NCBI GenBank assembly: GCA_003513015.1
Contig: DOTA01000067.1
Location: 3,100-12,888 of the forward strand
Length of the DNA: 9,789 bases
Source: Chloroflexota bacterium
GTDB taxonomy: Bacteria > Chloroflexota > Anaerolineae > Anaerolineales > UBA11858
Direction: 5' to 3'
Below are positions 2,307-8,479 of the stretch, in pieces. How positions within the stretch are numbered: the stretch's first letter is position 1; each line of letters starts with the position of its first letter. A program made the translations under genes and the position numbers. Below the pieces are notes generated by a model. The model worked only from the letters and a program-made list of their open reading frames with translations. It made no database searches and had not been told where the DNA came from.

Positions 2307-3143
2307 ATGTCCGAACAAGAACCCACCCCTCAAAATCAAGTCTCCGCTGAAAATTTACCGGATACGCTCAGAGATGATTCTCTGAACGAGATGCCAGAAG
2401 AGAATACCATCACCTTCAAGCGCGCCCATCTTTACTCCGTGCTTTTGCCCCTGGCGTTTGTTGCGGGGTTGACATTTGGGTATCTCTTTTGGGGACGCTC
2501 AGATTCCGCAGGAGCAGCGCAACCCTCTGTGGTTGTGGTTGCCGCCACCCCGGGCGCCGATCAGGAGCAGGCTGCCGTTCAGGGTGCCGAACCCACCCCG
2601 GAATTCCAGCGTTATGATGTTCCCATAGACGACGACCCGATTTTAGGGCCAGAACAAGCGGCCATCACCATCATCGAATTCAGTGATTATGAATGTCCTT
2701 ACTGCCGCAAATGGCATCAGGAAGTCTGGCCGTTATTGCAAGCGGAATATGGCGATCAAATCCGCCTGGTATACCGTGATTTCCCGCTGACCAGCATTCA
2801 TAGTAACGCCTCCCCCGCGGCAGTGGCTGCCAATTGTGCAGGCGAACAAGATAAATATTGGGAATTCAACGATAAGCTGTTTGCCATGAAACTGAACCTG
2901 GGCAAAACCACTTACCAAACCTATGCCGAGGAATTGGGCTTGGACATGCCAGCTTTCAACGAGTGCTTGGATAGTGGCCGCTATGTTGACGAAGTTGAGG
3001 CCGATTATCAATATGCCGCCAATTTGGGCATCCGTTCCACCCCCACCTTTTTTGTAAACGGCATCCCTGTGGTGGGTGCGCAGCCCTTTGATATGTTCAA
3101 AAGCCTGATCGATCAGGAATTGGCGGGCGAATTGCCCAAGTAG
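2307..3143 (+). CDS. Membrane-anchored DsbA-family thiol:disulfide oxidoreductase
   Basis: A 278-residue protein with an acidic cytoplasmic N-terminus (1-38), one signal-anchor helix (about 42-63), a Pro/Ala/Gln-rich linker (about 65-100) and an extracytoplasmic thioredoxin-fold DsbA domain (about 104-275). The active site is C130-P-Y-C133 in DYECPYCRKWH, and the cis-proline loop is T245-P246 in RSTPTFFVNG. This layout is that of DsbA/BdbD/thioredoxin_4-type proteins of Gram-positives and Chloroflexota, which oxidise or shuffle cysteines in exported proteins. Two further cysteines, C177 and C220, lie in the helical insertion and could form a second, structural disulfide as in some actinobacterial DsbA proteins (inference). 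No DsbB or VKOR partner is encoded nearby. The gene is monocistronic, with its own promoter at 2271-2299 and terminator at 3169-3206. Whether it is an oxidase or isomerase cannot be settled from sequence alone. Confidence 0.9.
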   Translation: MSEQEPTPQNQVSAENLPDTLRDDSLNEMPEENTITFKRAHLYSVLLPLAFVAGLTFGYLFWGRSDSAGAAQPSVVVVAATPGADQEQAAVQGAEPTPEFQRYDVPIDDDPILGPEQAAITIIEFSDYECPYCRKWHQEVWPLLQAEYGDQIRLVYRDFPLTSIHSNASPAAVAANCAGEQDKYWEFNDKLFAMKLNLGKTTYQTYAEELGLDMPAFNECLDSGRYVDEVEADYQYAANLGIRSTPTFFVNGIPVVGAQPFDMFKSLIDQELAGELPK

Positions 3144-3168
3144 TTTTCAAGATTGATCTGTGATTTTC

Positions 3169-3206
3169 AGACTGCCAGTCTAATTAGTACTGGCAGTCTT
3201 TTTTTT
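3169..3206 (+). terminator. Rho-independent terminator of the dsbA-like gene
   Basis: A perfect 11-bp stem (AGACTGCCAGT at 3169-3179, ACTGGCAGTCT at 3189-3199) with a nine-base loop is followed by an uninterrupted T run to 3206. It sits 25 bases after the stop codon at 3143. It isolates the dsbA-like gene from the zinc-ribbon cluster that begins 80 bases further on. Confidence 0.93.
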
Positions 3207-3224
3207 GTGCTGATTCTAGCCGGG

Positions 3225-3253
3225 TTCACTTGCCAGGGAGTTGCATGTATAAT
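3225..3253 (+). promoter_or_regulatory. Sigma-70-type promoter of the zinc-ribbon cluster (gene A)
   Basis: TTCACT (3225-3230, four of six matches to the -35 consensus) and TATAAT (3248-3253, perfect) are spaced by exactly 17 bases. The predicted start near 3260 gives a leader of about 26 bases carrying a GGAGG ribosome binding site. Unlike the promoters of the dsbA-like gene and gene B, this one makes a conventional leadered message. Confidence 0.65.
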
Positions 3254-3275
3254 GATTTGCAATCGAACTCTGGTT

Positions 3276-3280
3276 GGAGG
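3276..3280 (+). promoter_or_regulatory. Ribosome binding site that decides the gene A start
   Basis: GGAGG lies five bases before the TTG at 3286 and 17 bases before the first in-frame ATG at 3298. The spacing favours TTG 3286. A TTG at 3274 overlaps the site itself and cannot use it. Confidence 0.6.
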
Positions 3281-3285
3281 CTAAG

Positions 3286-4698
3286 TTGTACGGATCAATG
3301 GGTGATCGCAATTACGAAACGCTGGTGCGCGATGGAATTACGGCGGCCAAAAATGGTAACCGACGTTTGGCCTGGTCTTTGCTGAATCAGGCTACCCAGC
3401 TTAATTCGTTGGATGCACGTGCCTGGCTGTGGCTCACCGAAACCACTGATGATCTCAAAGAGAAAATCGAATATTTGGAAAACGCGGTGGCCGCTGATCC
3501 CAATAATGTTTCCACGGCGCGGGCCTTGGCTGTGCTCAAGGGCAAGGTAAATCCTGGTTCTGGGGTCAAAGCAAGGCCTGGTTTGACGGGGCCAAATGTG
3601 GTGGTGCAGGCCTCTCAGGAACCGGTAGTAGCCCAAACCCGACAGACTTTTTTGTGTCCGAAGTGTGGCGGTCACCTGGAGTTCAACATCCAATCCAATC
3701 TGCTGACATGCTTGTATTGCGGATACGCCCCCGATACCGCAGAAGAGCGTTCTGCTGCGGATGATGAGCGCCCTATGGGCGAGTTTTTGCCTACGGAAAG
3801 TGGTCACCGCTGGGCAGCCTCCCAGCAACAATTGAGTTGCCAGCGCTGCGGGGCAGTCAGTTTGTGGCCTCCGGAGCAGAAAGCATTGGAATGCCCTTAT
3901 TGTGCTTCCCGGCAAATGATCGCATCGGCTGAAACTGAATTGCTGATCGATCCCCAGGCCATTGCTATTATGCAAATTGAAGAAAAAGAAGCTGTGCGCC
4001 GCGTGAAAGATTGGTTCGGCCGTGGCTGGTTTGCCCCCGATGATCTTAACAATGCGGCCCAAAAACATCTTTTACACCCGGCTTATTACCCATTTTGGAC
4101 CTTTGATGGCACTTTGGAATTGCATTGGTCGTGTGAAGTCAATGACGGTAACAGCAGCCGCTACCAAAACTGGACCAACCGCAGCGGAGTGGAGTGCGAA
4201 CTGTTTAACGACGAGTTGGTGTCGGGGCTGCAGCATCTCAAAATCAAAGACCTGCGGAAATTAGGCCCCTACAATTTAATGGATGTGATCGAATTCAAAC
4301 CCGAATATCTGGCAGGCTGGCCAACCCTGACGTATGATTTGCCCCTGGCGCAAGCCTCCTTGCTAGCGCGCGAGAATGTGGTCCGCGATGTGCGCCGCAC
4401 TTTAACGGAACGCGTGCTGCCTGGGCAGCAAAAACGTAATTTGCAAACCGGCGGCCTCAATTGGAGTGATATGACCTTCAAAAATGTGCTGCTACCCCTT
4501 TGGATTGGCACCTACAACTATCAGGGTAAGGAATATAAGGTGTATGTCAACGGGCAAACGGGCAAAGTCACGGGCGAAAAACCTCGCGACCTGCTGAAAA
4601 CCATCTTGATTATCACCACGATTATTTCTTTTCTGCTGGTGGTTTTTATGTTTTTCGGGCTGGCCGGACTTCAATTTGGCTGGCTAAAGCTGCCCTGA
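3286..4698 (+). CDS. Gene A: helical-repeat plus double zinc-ribbon protein with C-terminal membrane anchor
   Basis: About 470 residues, with TTG 3286 chosen because GGAGG is correctly spaced; ATG 3298 is the alternative. Residues about 10-90 resemble tetratricopeptide helices (GITAAKNGNRRLAWSLLNQA and the AVAADPNN region). Two zinc ribbons follow: C124/C127/C142/C145 and C185/C188/C203/C206, each CxxC-x14-CxxC. A proline-aromatic block (YYPFWTFDG, P269-W271) opens a region of unknown fold. The C-terminal block has LPLWIG and VNGQTGKV (421-428), shared with genes B and C. One hydrophobic helix (about 437-465) ends the protein, so the ribbons are probably cytoplasmic and the protein tail-anchored. 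It is the first and largest of four paralogues. Automatic pipelines may label such proteins TFIIB-type zinc ribbon or primosomal N' because of the ribbons; no helicase motif is present. I do not recognise a defined function. Confidence 0.85.
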   Translation: MYGSMGDRNYETLVRDGITAAKNGNRRLAWSLLNQATQLNSLDARAWLWLTETTDDLKEKIEYLENAVAADPNNVSTARALAVLKGKVNPGSGVKARPGLTGPNVVVQASQEPVVAQTRQTFLCPKCGGHLEFNIQSNLLTCLYCGYAPDTAEERSAADDERPMGEFLPTESGHRWAASQQQLSCQRCGAVSLWPPEQKALECPYCASRQMIASAETELLIDPQAIAIMQIEEKEAVRRVKDWFGRGWFAPDDLNNAAQKHLLHPAYYPFWTFDGTLELHWSCEVNDGNSSRYQNWTNRSGVECELFNDELVSGLQHLKIKDLRKLGPYNLMDVIEFKPEYLAGWPTLTYDLPLAQASLLARENVVRDVRRTLTERVLPGQQKRNLQTGGLNWSDMTFKNVLLPLWIGTYNYQGKEYKVYVNGQTGKVTGEKPRDLLKTILIITTIISFLLVVFMFFGLAGLQFGWLKLP

Positions 4699-4723
4699 CC
4701 GGAATTAGGAACCTTGCTATAAT
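4695..4723 (+). promoter_or_regulatory. Extended -10 promoter abutting gene B (leaderless)
   Basis: CTGACC (4695-4700, four of six matches to -35) and a perfect TATAAT (4718-4723) are spaced by 17 bases, with TGC directly before the -10 making it an extended -10. The ATG of gene B is at 4730, six bases after the box, so transcription should start on the start codon itself. The -35 overlaps the stop codon of gene A. Gene B therefore probably has its own internal, leaderless promoter in addition to read-through from gene A. Confidence 0.7.
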
Positions 4724-4729
4724 ACAACC

Positions 4730-5542
4730 ATGTCTGATGTAATTTCTGCGCCTGCCAATGTTTTCCCTTGTACGCAATGTGGAGGTGAACTGCACCCGGA
4801 TGAAGGGCAGAATTTCCTGGTTTGCCCTTTTTGCGAATCGACGGTTTACATCGACAAGACCCGCGTGGTGTTTCATTGGTATCTGGCCTCCACGCTGGAC
4901 CAGCCCAAGGCCCAGGCCAATCTGGCGCGCTGGATGGGGGGCAGTGCCACCATCAAAGATTTGGATAAAAAAGCCCGTCTAGCGGGCAGTTCCTTCGAGT
5001 TTTTTCCCTTTTGGGTGTTCAAATCAAAAGATAAAAGCGACAACGAAAGCCTGTGGCTGGAACCGGCCGCCGCGATTTCGGTCAGTGAATTGAAAAACAT
5101 TACCGTTCCCGCGGGTGATTTGCGCAAATTCGATGAGTCTATCAATGCACAGGCGCACGCCCCCACCATCCCCCTGCCCACCGTGATGGAATGGCTGAAG
5201 CCCCGCCTGCCCGCAGACGCGGAAATCAGCGAAACCGCTTTGGTGCATATTCCCATCTATACTTTCAAATACACCTACAAGGGCGATAGCTACACCGCCA
5301 TCGTTGAAGGGGCCACCGGCGGCGTGTTTGCCAATATTTTCCCTGCCAAAGCCGAATCCCCTTTCCGCATCGTGGGTGGCTTGGCGGCCTTTATCTTTCT
5401 GTGCTTGGCGACCTTTCCGGTTTTGGGTGCTTTGACTGGCGGCAATGGGATTGCTATCGGCGGTGGCCTGTGTATTGGCCTTGGATTGCTGTCCGCCCCC
5501 TTCCTATTCGCCTTGGCAGTTTGGGTTGCCGCGAAGGTTTAA
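4730..5542 (+). CDS. Gene B: single zinc-ribbon membrane protein, paralogue of gene A
   Basis: 270 residues. The N-terminal zinc ribbon (C14/C17/C32/C35, CxxC-x14-CxxC, as CTQCGG and CPFCES) is followed by a helical segment (about 50-88), a proline-aromatic motif FFPFWVF (P93-W95) and a mixed region. The C-terminal block HIPIYTFKYTYKG then VEGATGGV (192-199) matches the same block in genes A and C. Two C-terminal hydrophobic segments (about 212-235 and 240-268) form a probable membrane hairpin, so the soluble part is predicted cytoplasmic. No Shine-Dalgarno sequence precedes the ATG, consistent with the -10 box six bases upstream. It starts 31 bases after gene A and ends 16 bases before gene C. 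Function is unknown; membership in one family with genes A, C and D is clear by eye. Confidence 0.88.
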   Translation: MSDVISAPANVFPCTQCGGELHPDEGQNFLVCPFCESTVYIDKTRVVFHWYLASTLDQPKAQANLARWMGGSATIKDLDKKARLAGSSFEFFPFWVFKSKDKSDNESLWLEPAAAISVSELKNITVPAGDLRKFDESINAQAHAPTIPLPTVMEWLKPRLPADAEISETALVHIPIYTFKYTYKGDSYTAIVEGATGGVFANIFPAKAESPFRIVGGLAAFIFLCLATFPVLGALTGGNGIAIGGGLCIGLGLLSAPFLFALAVWVAAKV

Positions 5543-5558
5543 ATCCGCGAATAAAACT

Positions 5559-6599
5559 ATGCCCGAAAATGACTCTCTCCACGGCCTGAACTGCCCCAAC
5601 TGCGGCGGCATGGTACCCATCCCTGAGGGGCAAACCATCGTCAAATGCCCCTTCTGCGAACAGCGTTCCTTTGTGCGCGGTGAACGCGGCTTGCGGCGTT
5701 ATCAGGTGGCCCAGCGCGTCGAGCGCGCACAGGCCCTGAGTGGGCTACACCAGTTTCTCGGCGGGCACCGCGCCATCGCCAGTGATGTTGTCAAAAGCGC
5801 CAAACTTTCCGAAATCTTCATAGCTTACCTGCCTTTCTGGGCTGTGTGGGCCAAAGTGCTCGGCTGGGTTTTTGGGGAAAAACGAGTTGGCAGCGGCGAT
5901 AACAAACGTTACGAACCGCGTGAAATCAAGATTGCCCAAGAGATGCAGTGGAATGGCGTGGCCTGTGATGTAGGCGAATTTGGCGTTGACTCCTTGCCGC
6001 TTACCACCCAGCAAATGGAACCCTTCAACCCGGAGGTGCTGCACGCCCGCGGGATGGTCTTCGAGCCGCTTGGCTCACAATCCGATGCCCAAAACACCGC
6101 CGATGCCGAATTCCAGGCCGAAGTCAAAAATCACGCCAACCTCGACCGCATCGCTCAAATTTTCACCCGACTGGCAAACCGCCGCTTCGGGCTGGTCTAC
6201 TATCCCCTGTGGGTGCTGCGCTATCTTTACAAAGGCCGCGCCTTCCAGGTTGTTGTCGATGGCTACACCGGCAAAGTGCTTTATGGCAAGGCCCCCGGCA
6301 GCAATCTTTACCGCGCCGCGGTGCTGGTGGGCGGCATGATTCTCGGCGCGTTTTTGGCAATCGATCTCTCCTCCGGCGCTTTTGCTGTGGCCTTCCAAAT
6401 GGAAGATGATGGCGTTTTTGCGCTACTGGCGATTGGTGTGGGTCTCTTCATCGCAGGGTTGGGCATCATGGTGGCCGCTTACCGCAAATTTCGCTACGGC
6501 GATATCTTCGAATACCGCGGCCACCGCCGCAAGAAAAGCAAAAACACCGGCCTGTTCAAACAATTTAGCGAAATTACCAATGCCCTGGAGTTGGACTGA
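5559..6599 (+). CDS. Gene C: zinc-ribbon membrane protein, paralogue of gene B
   Basis: 346 residues from ATG 5559. An earlier in-frame ATG at 5445 lies inside gene B and is rejected. With the 5559 start the ribbon cysteines fall at C12/C15/C30/C33, exactly the positions in gene D. After the ribbon come a basic helical region (about 40-80), YLPFWAVW (P92-W94), a longer insertion than in gene B (about 100-205), then YYPLWVLRYLYKG and VDGYTGKV (233-240). Two membrane helices (about 252-270 and 286-307) are followed by a basic tail with HRRKKSK, which fits the positive-inside rule for a cytoplasmic C-terminus. No good Shine-Dalgarno sequence precedes it; re-initiation after the gene B stop 16 bases upstream is plausible. 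Function is not recognised. Confidence 0.88.
   Translation: MPENDSLHGLNCPNCGGMVPIPEGQTIVKCPFCEQRSFVRGERGLRRYQVAQRVERAQALSGLHQFLGGHRAIASDVVKSAKLSEIFIAYLPFWAVWAKVLGWVFGEKRVGSGDNKRYEPREIKIAQEMQWNGVACDVGEFGVDSLPLTTQQMEPFNPEVLHARGMVFEPLGSQSDAQNTADAEFQAEVKNHANLDRIAQIFTRLANRRFGLVYYPLWVLRYLYKGRAFQVVVDGYTGKVLYGKAPGSNLYRAAVLVGGMILGAFLAIDLSSGAFAVAFQMEDDGVFALLAIGVGLFIAGLGIMVAAYRKFRYGDIFEYRGHRRKKSKNTGLFKQFSEITNALELD
6587..6590 (+). promoter_or_regulatory. Ribosome binding site of gene D inside gene C
   Basis: GGAG lies eight bases before the ATG at 6599, within the last codons of gene C. Together with the one-base TGATG overlap it indicates translational coupling of C and D. Confidence 0.5.
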
Positions 6600-7135
6600 T
6601 GGAAACCCCGGTTGAACTCATTCCCCTCAACTGCCTCCGTTGCGGTAGGCCCCTCCCCGCCGAAATCGAAGAAGTTGCCTGGGCTTGTGAAAATTGTGAA
6701 CAGGGGCAACAACTGGGAGATCGGGGATTGCTGCCCCTGGAGATCCACTACGCTCAGGGGATTGCCCCCTCCCAAAAGGGAAAACCCTACTGGGTTTGTG
6801 AGGGGCACCTGACCATCCAAAGGGATACCTACGGCAAGGCCAAAAGCGAAAAAGACGCCCAACAATTTTGGGGGCAGCCGCGCCAATTCATCATCCCGGC
6901 TTTTTCCTATCCCCTAGAGAAATTCACGGTCGATGGCCTGCAATGGCTGCAATACCCCCCTGCCATGCAGCCCGGCCCGCGGGCGGCCTTCGAATCTGTC
7001 ACCGTGCCCGTCGAAGATGTGCAAGTTTGGGCCGAATTCTTGGTGGTTGCCCTGGAAGCTGAGCGCAAAGACAAAATTAAAAAAGTGGATTTCACCCTGC
7101 AATTAAACAAGCCCCAATTATGGGTGTTACCCTAA
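6599..7135 (+). CDS. Gene D: soluble short zinc-ribbon paralogue
   Basis: 178 residues. The start overlaps the gene C stop by one base (TGATG). The zinc ribbon is C12/C15/C30/C33 (CLRC, CENC), the same register and x14 spacing as gene C. Two proline-aromatic motifs follow: KPYWVCEG (P63-W65), closest to the motif in gene A, and FIIPAFSYPL (97-106). Neither the VxGxTGxV block nor any membrane helix is present, so this is a short, probably cytoplasmic member. It reads as complete, with a normal stop and no frameshift, so it looks like a specialised subunit rather than a broken gene. Likely co-expressed with A to C; possibly a soluble partner or regulator of the membrane paralogues (inference). 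Function is unknown. Confidence 0.85.
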   Translation: METPVELIPLNCLRCGRPLPAEIEEVAWACENCEQGQQLGDRGLLPLEIHYAQGIAPSQKGKPYWVCEGHLTIQRDTYGKAKSEKDAQQFWGQPRQFIIPAFSYPLEKFTVDGLQWLQYPPAMQPGPRAAFESVTVPVEDVQVWAEFLVVALEAERKDKIKKVDFTLQLNKPQLWVLP

Positions 7136-7164
7136 TTACCCTGTACCCACTCATCGAATAACAA

Positions 7165-7171
7165 AGGAAGG
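7165..7171 (+). promoter_or_regulatory. Ribosome binding site of glgC
   Basis: AGGAAGG lies six bases before the ATG at 7178, the best-spaced and purine-richest ribosome binding site in the window together with that of gene A. It fixes the glgC start. I saw no clear promoter in the 42 bases between gene D and glgC, so glgC may be transcribed with the zinc-ribbon genes. Confidence 0.7.
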
Positions 7172-7177
7172 TACCTC

Positions 7178-8479
7178 ATGCAAATACTCGACAACATTCT
7201 CGGCATCATCATGGGCGGCGGTCGCGGCTCCCGCCTTTATCCATTGACGCGTGACCGTGCCAAACCGGCGGTTCCCATTGCCGGAAAATACCGCCTGATC
7301 GATATTCCCATCAGCAACTGCATCAACTCGGGCATTCATCACATCGCCGTGCTGACGCAGTTTAATTCGGTTTCGCTGCACCGGCATATTACCCAAACCT
7401 ATAATTTCGATGCCTTCCACCGGGGCTGGGTGCAACTTTGGGCCGCTGAACAAACCATCGGCAGCGAATCGTGGTACCAGGGCACCGCTGATGCTGTACG
7501 CAAGCAGCTTTTTGAAATCAGATCGGCCCGTGCCGATTATGTGCTGATTTTGGCGGGTGATCACCTCTACCAGATGGATTACGAAGATATGGCGCGCTTT
7601 CACTGGGATAATGGCGCTGACATCACCGTGGCTGTGCAGCCCGCCTCCACTGAAGATGCCTCCCGCTTTGGTATTCTGAAACGCTCCGATGAAGGGCTGA
7701 TCACCGATTTCGTGGAAAAACCCAAAGATCCCAAGGTACTCAAAAAATTTATCAGCCGCGACGATCCGGAACGGCCTTACCTCGCCTCGATGGGTAATTA
7801 TTTCTTCAAAACCGATGTTTTGTTGGATTTATTAAATAGCACCACCGACGACGATTTTGGGGGCGAGGTGATCCCCAAGGCGATTCACACCCACAAAGTT
7901 TGCGGCTTTGATTTTGACGGCTATTGGGAAGATATTGGAACTATCCGCTCGTTTTACGAGGTCAACCTGAAACTGGCCAGCCCTGATTCGCCTTTTAATT
8001 TTAATGATCCCACCAAACGGATTTACACCCGGGCGCGTTTCTTGCCCAGCACCAAAGTAGATGGCGCAACCCTCGAAGATGTGATGATTTCGGAAGGCTG
8101 CCTGATCGGTAAAGCCGAAATTGAGAACGCCGTTATCGGGCTGCGTTCACAAATTGGCGATGGAGCGGTGATCCGCAACACGGTTTTGATGGGCGCCGAT
8201 TATTATGATAATCCCGATGATTTAGCCAAAGGCCAGGGTATCCCTCTGGGCATCGGGAAGAACAGCGTGATCGATGGTGCTCTGATCGATAAAAATGCCC
8301 GCATCGGAGAAGGTGTGGTCATCAAGCCCTTCCCGCCGGATGTGGAAATTGATCACGATGATTGGGTGGTGCGTGATGGCATTGTGGTGATCCCCAAGCG
8401 AGCGGTTATCCATCCAGGCACGGTAATTGCCCCAGATAAGGCTGTGAGTGATGTGCCCAGCAGCGGAGTAGCTCAGTAG
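7178..8479 (+). CDS. glgC: Glucose-1-phosphate adenylyltransferase (ADP-glucose pyrophosphorylase)
   Basis: 433 residues, full length for the family. It converts ATP and glucose 1-phosphate to ADP-glucose and pyrophosphate, the committed and usually allosterically controlled step of bacterial glycogen synthesis in the cytosol. The N-terminal nucleotidyltransferase domain shows GGGRGSRLYPLT (13-24) with Lys29 in RAKPAVP, WYQGTADAVRK (99-109), LAGDHLY with Asp128, the sugar-phosphate site VEKP (179-182) and GYWEDIGT (248-255). The C-terminal left-handed beta-helix spans about 295-420. The block RIYTRARFLPSTK then GLRSQIGDGA and MGADYY is of the cyanobacterial/plant type rather than the enterobacterial type, which suggests 3-phosphoglycerate-like rather than fructose-1,6-bisphosphate control, though effectors cannot be read off safely. 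No glgA, glgB or glgP lies in the window. Confidence 0.97.
   Translation: MQILDNILGIIMGGGRGSRLYPLTRDRAKPAVPIAGKYRLIDIPISNCINSGIHHIAVLTQFNSVSLHRHITQTYNFDAFHRGWVQLWAAEQTIGSESWYQGTADAVRKQLFEIRSARADYVLILAGDHLYQMDYEDMARFHWDNGADITVAVQPASTEDASRFGILKRSDEGLITDFVEKPKDPKVLKKFISRDDPERPYLASMGNYFFKTDVLLDLLNSTTDDDFGGEVIPKAIHTHKVCGFDFDGYWEDIGTIRSFYEVNLKLASPDSPFNFNDPTKRIYTRARFLPSTKVDGATLEDVMISEGCLIGKAEIENAVIGLRSQIGDGAVIRNTVLMGADYYDNPDDLAKGQGIPLGIGKNSVIDGALIDKNARIGEGVVIKPFPPDVEIDHDDWVVRDGIVVIPKRAVIHPGTVIAPDKAVSDVPSSGVAQ

Follow-up and report, generated by a model that had tools for sequence, protein, structure and literature searches.

A zinc-ribbon gene trio of Anaerolineales, found behind SPFH genes in other phyla, as a candidate membrane anchor

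The four genes and their zinc ribbons

The window, by which we mean the whole stretch of 9,789 nucleotides analyzed here (contig DOTA01000067.1 of a Chloroflexota bacterium of the order Anaerolineales), contains four genes, A to D (Table 1), in the company of genes for an S9 peptidase, an opposite-strand response regulator, a dsbA-like protein, a glgC-like protein and a PMT_2 protein. Gene A is read from a TTG with GGAGG ahead of it, an ATG at 3298 being the alternative in this sequence reading, and the start of gene D overlaps the stop of gene C (6599). The dsbA-like gene, named as a neighbor of the cluster in the initial annotation, is cut off from A by a terminator-like hairpin followed by T8; the hairpin was read in the sequence, its loop exceeding the limit of the generic scan, which hence does not list it. 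In another genome (G018, L068:7807-12013) two genes, for an EcoRV-like endonuclease and a D12 methyltransferase, separate A from the dsbA-like gene.

Table 1. Positions of genes and features in the window.
Feature	Position	Strand	Remarks
Terminator-like hairpin of upstream dsbA-like gene	3170-3206	+	10-bp perfect stem, 9-nt loop, T8
Gene A	3286-4698	+	TPR-like N-terminal helical repeat, two zinc ribbons, YdjG-type domain, one C-terminal hydrophobic helix
A ribbon 1	3655-3720	+	CxxC-x14-CxxC; Cys invariant in alignment A4, 10 rows
A ribbon 2	3838-3903	+	CxxC-x14-CxxC; Cys invariant in alignment A4, 10 rows
Extended -10 box TGCTATAAT, predicted	4715-4723	+	6 nt before ATG of B; exact TATAAT ahead of B at 35/50 Chloroflexota loci
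Gene B	4730-5542	+	one ribbon, YdjG-type (possibly YpeB-like) domain, C-terminal membrane hairpin
B ribbon	4769-4834	+	Cys invariant in alignment A6, 50 rows
B membrane hairpin, predicted	5354-5536	+	helices 209-236 and 240-269 in B model
Gene C	5559-6599	+	one ribbon, YdjG-type domain with insertion, C-terminal hydrophobic helices
C ribbon	5592-5657	+	Cys invariant in alignment A7, 33 rows
Gene D	6599-7135	+	soluble, one ribbon and unrelated alpha/beta domain
D ribbon	6632-6697	+	Cys invariant in alignment A5, 53 rows

All five ribbons have the spacing C-x2-C-x14-C-x2-C, as had been noted from the sequence before, and their cysteines (120/123/138/141 and 181/184/199/202 in A, numbered from 3298; 14/17/32/35 in B; 12/15/30/33 in both C and D) are invariant in the four alignments. 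The further features claimed for three of the proteins are likewise there: in A, B and C the ribbon is followed by a P-aromatic motif and a [Y/F]xhhVxGxTGxV block (A YKVYVNGQTGKV, B YTAIVEGATGGV, C FQVVVDGYTGKV) and by a predicted C-terminal membrane segment, which in B is taken from the structure model and in A and C from the hydrophobic C-termini of the sequences. Positions of about 12-84 of the A profile match TPR chains, and the model of D has a pLDDT of 94. Conserved residues are found beyond the ribbons also in the membrane-proximal domain.

A, B and C are related beyond the ribbon

Comparison of full profiles with hhalign gave probabilities of 99.3% for B with C, 99.1% for B with A, 99.6% for C with A and 85-88% for D with each of the three. 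After removal of the ribbons B-C, B-A and C-A still matched at 98.5%, 96.7% and 99.2%, a likeness that is more than chance, whereas D without its ribbon gave 1-22% and no sign of a relationship with the three. By these comparisons the paralogy of A, B and C covers the post-ribbon domain, and D has only the ribbon in common with them; of the four paralogous genes initially proposed three thus stand.

In a phylogenetic tree each of the groups A, B and C is set off from the other rows by a single branch (support 100/99, 100/99 and 99/99, respectively), and within both B and C the rows from Acidobacteriota and from Ignavibacteriota/Chlorobiota form clades. The tree comprises 118 of the 174 gathered rows, the Chloroflexota B and C rows from L085-L127 having been thinned to one in three and all rows with X or with <150 residues dropped; its A group also includes the paralogues A2 and B2 (see below) and plasmid relatives, and the program cautions that branches on the A side are long. 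The strong support of these branches indicates that the A/B/C duplication is old rather than local; a recent tandem duplication is not supported.

A2 and B2, a further pair of ribbon proteins belonging to this family, are encoded at L005 (G000:C188, 1758-4198) between genes that by eye resemble prs and queA; downstream of the pair follow genes for two proteins of 231 and 199 aa, the former with a hydrophobic stretch at its C-terminus.

B, C and D form a conserved unit, apart from A

A scan of named genomes yielded 69 loci, 50 from Chloroflexota, 18 from Ignavibacteriota/Chlorobiota/Acidobacteriota and one from a record labeled Elusimicrobia (L122). B, C and D follow each other in this order and on one strand in 58 of the 69; the triad is present, for instance, in Anaerolinea thermolimosa IMO-1 (L107). 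Eight of the remaining 11 break off inside the module or shortly behind it, and one (L109) escaped the scoring rule on account of overlong frames; the real exceptions are L085, the D of which is on another contig of apparently the same genome (G141), and L125, which has B alone. Within the order Anaerolineales 20 of 23 loci have the three genes in order, 22 of the 23 being apparently the same contigs as named loci, so that the two sets are not independent. Gene A (best profile A4, >150 bits) lies beside B-C-D at none of the 69 named loci, nor at the one further locus of the order set. Hence, the conserved order expected for A-B-C-D holds for its B-C-D part and fails for A.

Among 201 genomes of the order B has a full-length match in 24 (37 at E ≤ 0.001, the rest being partial matches to relatives), all 24 of which also carry D. 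Strong matches to D occur in 26 genomes (32 at E ≤ 0.001), the two beyond the B set being G038, whose C reaches the edge of its contig, and G066, where a B-like frame of 40% identity is all that stands for B. A is found at E ≤ 1e-150 in 33 of the 201, including 12 of the 24 B-bearing genomes, and adjoins a fused glycyl-tRNA synthetase gene at seven of 11 A loci examined (Pfam was run on one). B-C-D is therefore a conserved three-gene unit, and A a relative that is encoded apart elsewhere; the notion of one four-gene system is not supported, since A is absent beside the triad at these loci and A and B occur independently. In five cases A and B matches lie on contigs of equal size (267602, 20177, 3370, 188909 and 500843), from which it follows that close relatives probably keep the A-B order. 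The triad is patchy: of 21 genomes of its own family only that of the window has B, and a survey of 400 genomes of the phylum revealed B in four (E ≤ 1e-20). Gene transfer is possible.

Some Anaerolineae have a gene with a phosphoribosyltransferase domain divergently upstream of B (e.g., L058:9497-10069) and a THUMP-like methyltransferase beyond it, each at 11 loci. The record titled Elusimicrobia (L122) has at a contig end a Chloroflexota-like B with 50% identity to that of the window, which suggests either mis-binning or transfer.

A predicted promoter in front of B

The exact hexamer TATAAT stands 4-10 nt ahead of B, counted from an in-frame start codon (ATG or GTG), at 35 of 50 Chloroflexota loci and at none of 17 others, the start codons in this count having been picked by rule and some of them being wrong. 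With five of six positions matching, it was found ahead of B at 39 of 67 loci (4.2 in shuffled sequences), ahead of C at seven of 59 (4.1) and ahead of D at one of 56 (2.1). The pattern TGCTATAAT-N5-8-ATG has seven sites in the 3.7-Mb genome versus two for the reversed pattern. A generic promoter scan of 2900-7400 gave three sites versus 2.9 in shuffles, one of the three being the TGCTATAAT box. The conservation of the box predicts that B-C-D likely has its own promoter and a leaderless transcript, independent of A, and fits transcription of B from an upstream promoter in the other phyla.

SPFH genes precede B in other phyla

Across all domains of life SPFH proteins assemble into membrane cages. 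The initial annotation had named them as possible recurring partners, which proved correct outside the phylum of the window: an SPFH gene lies upstream of B on the same strand at 17 of the 18 Ignavibacteriota/Chlorobiota/Acidobacteriota loci (12 of 12 in Ignavibacteriota/Chlorobiota and five of six in Acidobacteriota), the one without it being L152, where the sequence ends 290 bases upstream of B. At L149 the gap between SPFH and B is about 0.8 kb. No SPFH gene precedes B at any of the 50 Chloroflexota loci (a few with <2 kb upstream), and none lies beside B in L122 or in the window. In a Thermoanaerobaculia MAG (L147:7897-9771) SPFH and B are in one open frame with a linker that looks out of frame, possibly a frameshift or error.

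The SPFH gene belongs to PF13421 (Pfam), with a C-terminal zinc ribbon in L150 and a SHOCT domain in L133. The genome of the window has one strong PF13421 gene, which is located on contig C383, not beside B-C-D, and is preceded at a distance of 36 bases by a gene for a 175-aa helical protein. A gene of this kind is found ahead of SPFH at 25 of the 30 best-scoring loci of the order; a homologue (43-62 bits) stands before SPFH at four Acidobacteriota loci (L147, L150, L151 and L153), the run continues into B-C-D at three loci, and the gene was not found at the Ignavibacteriota/Chlorobiota loci or at L149. The parts that form one operon in Acidobacteriota are thus present but dispersed in the genome of the window, where they would work in trans. 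The SPFH protein of the window's genome (L156:3829-4893) has a C-terminal helix-turn-helix domain (PF12728), as has that of Comamonas.

Gene A and the YdjG-type proteins

Residues 107-429 of A match proteins named "TFIIB-type zinc ribbon" with 24.6-30.8% identity (E 1e-16 to 6e-43), to whose family A belongs; it differs from the "TFIIB-type zinc ribbon-containing proteins" in its extra N-terminal TPR-like repeat. A also aligns, along both ribbons and both P-aromatic motifs, with SPFH-adjacent proteins of five plasmids. Its family lies directly behind SPFH at all five plasmid loci read (of 12), in one of them (Enterococcus) together with a TPM gene. For the Enterococcus member 3466 relatives were found among 6771 candidates scored, and the named ones among the 120 matches listed are Enterococcus or a Tetragenococcus candidate; B has 1133 relatives among 4861 candidates.

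The pspA-ydjGHI operon of Bacillus subtilis encodes YdjG, with two zinc ribbons, a following domain and a transmembrane segment, besides the SPFH protein YdjI and the TPM protein YdjH (PMC11237479). A has the architecture reported for YdjG, a match by description, and its family shares with YdjG the SPFH neighbor in five plasmids, once also with TPM. The earlier statement that no characterized pathway exists for such genes was therefore too strong. B and C differ from YdjG in having one ribbon each, and the triad in combining two such proteins with D. Since B, C and D each have one ribbon, whereas A has the two on the N-terminal side that are typical of YdjG, B-C-D is better filed as a relative of the YdjG-type SPFH partners than as a member.

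Also counted among the closest known systems are the C-terminal domain of YpeB (PDB 5boi) and YpmB (2gu3). In the SPFH families described in "Evolution of prokaryotic SPFH proteins" (PMC2636767) the SPFH gene likewise has a conserved membrane partner gene, but the partner is NfeD; the words "zinc" and "YdjI" are absent from the main text. The plain label of a PSP system is disfavored, since in the genome of the window (82.8% complete) no PspA/IM30 (PF04012) is above the cut-off (best 17.3 versus 33.9 bits).

Proposed function and alternatives

Because the same trio lies directly behind a flotillin-family gene in other phyla, we slightly favor the proposal that B-C-D is the membrane-anchor module of an SPFH (flotillin-like) scaffold, beside its relative A; by analogy it is best read as a three-subunit variant of the YdjG/YdjI theme. 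B and C would be anchored in the inner membrane through their C-terminal helices, their ribbons and the domains behind these lying in the cytoplasm; D would be soluble. The ribbons would bind zinc, mediate protein contacts and keep the soluble SPFH oligomer, together with D, attached to the membrane, much as YdjG/YdjH recruit YdjI in B. subtilis, for which the membrane targeting of an SPFH protein without membrane segment has been studied. In the window's genome the SPFH protein encoded on the other contig would act with B-C-D in trans. The assembly may respond to or repair envelope stress.

Three other readings were weighed. That A-B-C-D make up a single four-subunit complex, as their adjacency on one strand and the probably kept A-B order on the equal-sized contigs would allow, is quite improbable given the absence of A beside the triad at the named loci, the independent occurrence of A and B among the 201 genomes and the predicted promoter box of B inside the A-B gap; the idea of subunits of one membrane-attached complex is retained here for B-C-D. 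Very improbable appears a membrane-tethered transcription regulator with nucleic-acid-binding ribbons of the TFIIB type. The ribbons do match those of TFIIB and of RNA polymerase subunits weakly, DNA binding by the YdjG ribbon is suggested by Popp et al. (2022; PMC9239133) and the SPFH protein of the window's genome carries the helix-turn-helix domain mentioned above; but every A-D ribbon match is below the Pfam and NCBIfam cut-offs (20.9 bits for A and 11.8 for B versus 29 with PF08271), A-D have no other DNA-binding domain and conservation extends to the membrane-proximal domain.

The remaining reading, which we consider unlikely, is a Chloroflexota lipid-remodeling complex, in which the membrane ribbons recruit or regulate a phospholipase-D (PLD)-like protein encoded behind D. 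All 22 members of this protein have two HKD motifs, the genes of 16 start ≤65 nt after the end of D, one lies ≤4 kb from D at 15 of the 32 Chloroflexota loci whose sequence extends far enough, and an HKD hydrolase has been reported in some band-7/PspA operons (Ravi et al., 2024). Against it stand the other 17 loci, where there is none ≤4 kb from D, the window, where glgC follows D instead, the restriction of all 22 members to Chloroflexota loci and the appearance, by eye, of an exported PLD protein and of cytoplasmic ribbons. An example of the PLD-like gene, whose product is probably exported, is L053:10535-11629, with 21 other loci. At 11 of the 32 Chloroflexota loci a HerA/FtsK-like ATPase of about 830 aa is encoded downstream of B-C-D (e.g., L058:3204-5708); its C-terminus, as read in the L049 frame, contains the residues W-V-P-Y-Y, which recall the P-aromatic motif shared by A, B and C.

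Returning to the SPFH anchor, we tentatively extend the proposal as follows. SPFH-B-C-D, headed in Acidobacteriota by the helical protein, may be an undescribed PspA-independent scaffold, in which three different ribbons dock the SPFH cage; in Anaerolineae the operon would have been broken, leaving B-C-D with its own leaderless promoter and often coupled to the PLD-like protein. The ribbon trio co-inherited behind SPFH in further phyla provides named anchor candidates, and the link to SPFH suggests a function for a large family that is often labeled TFIIB-like in databases.
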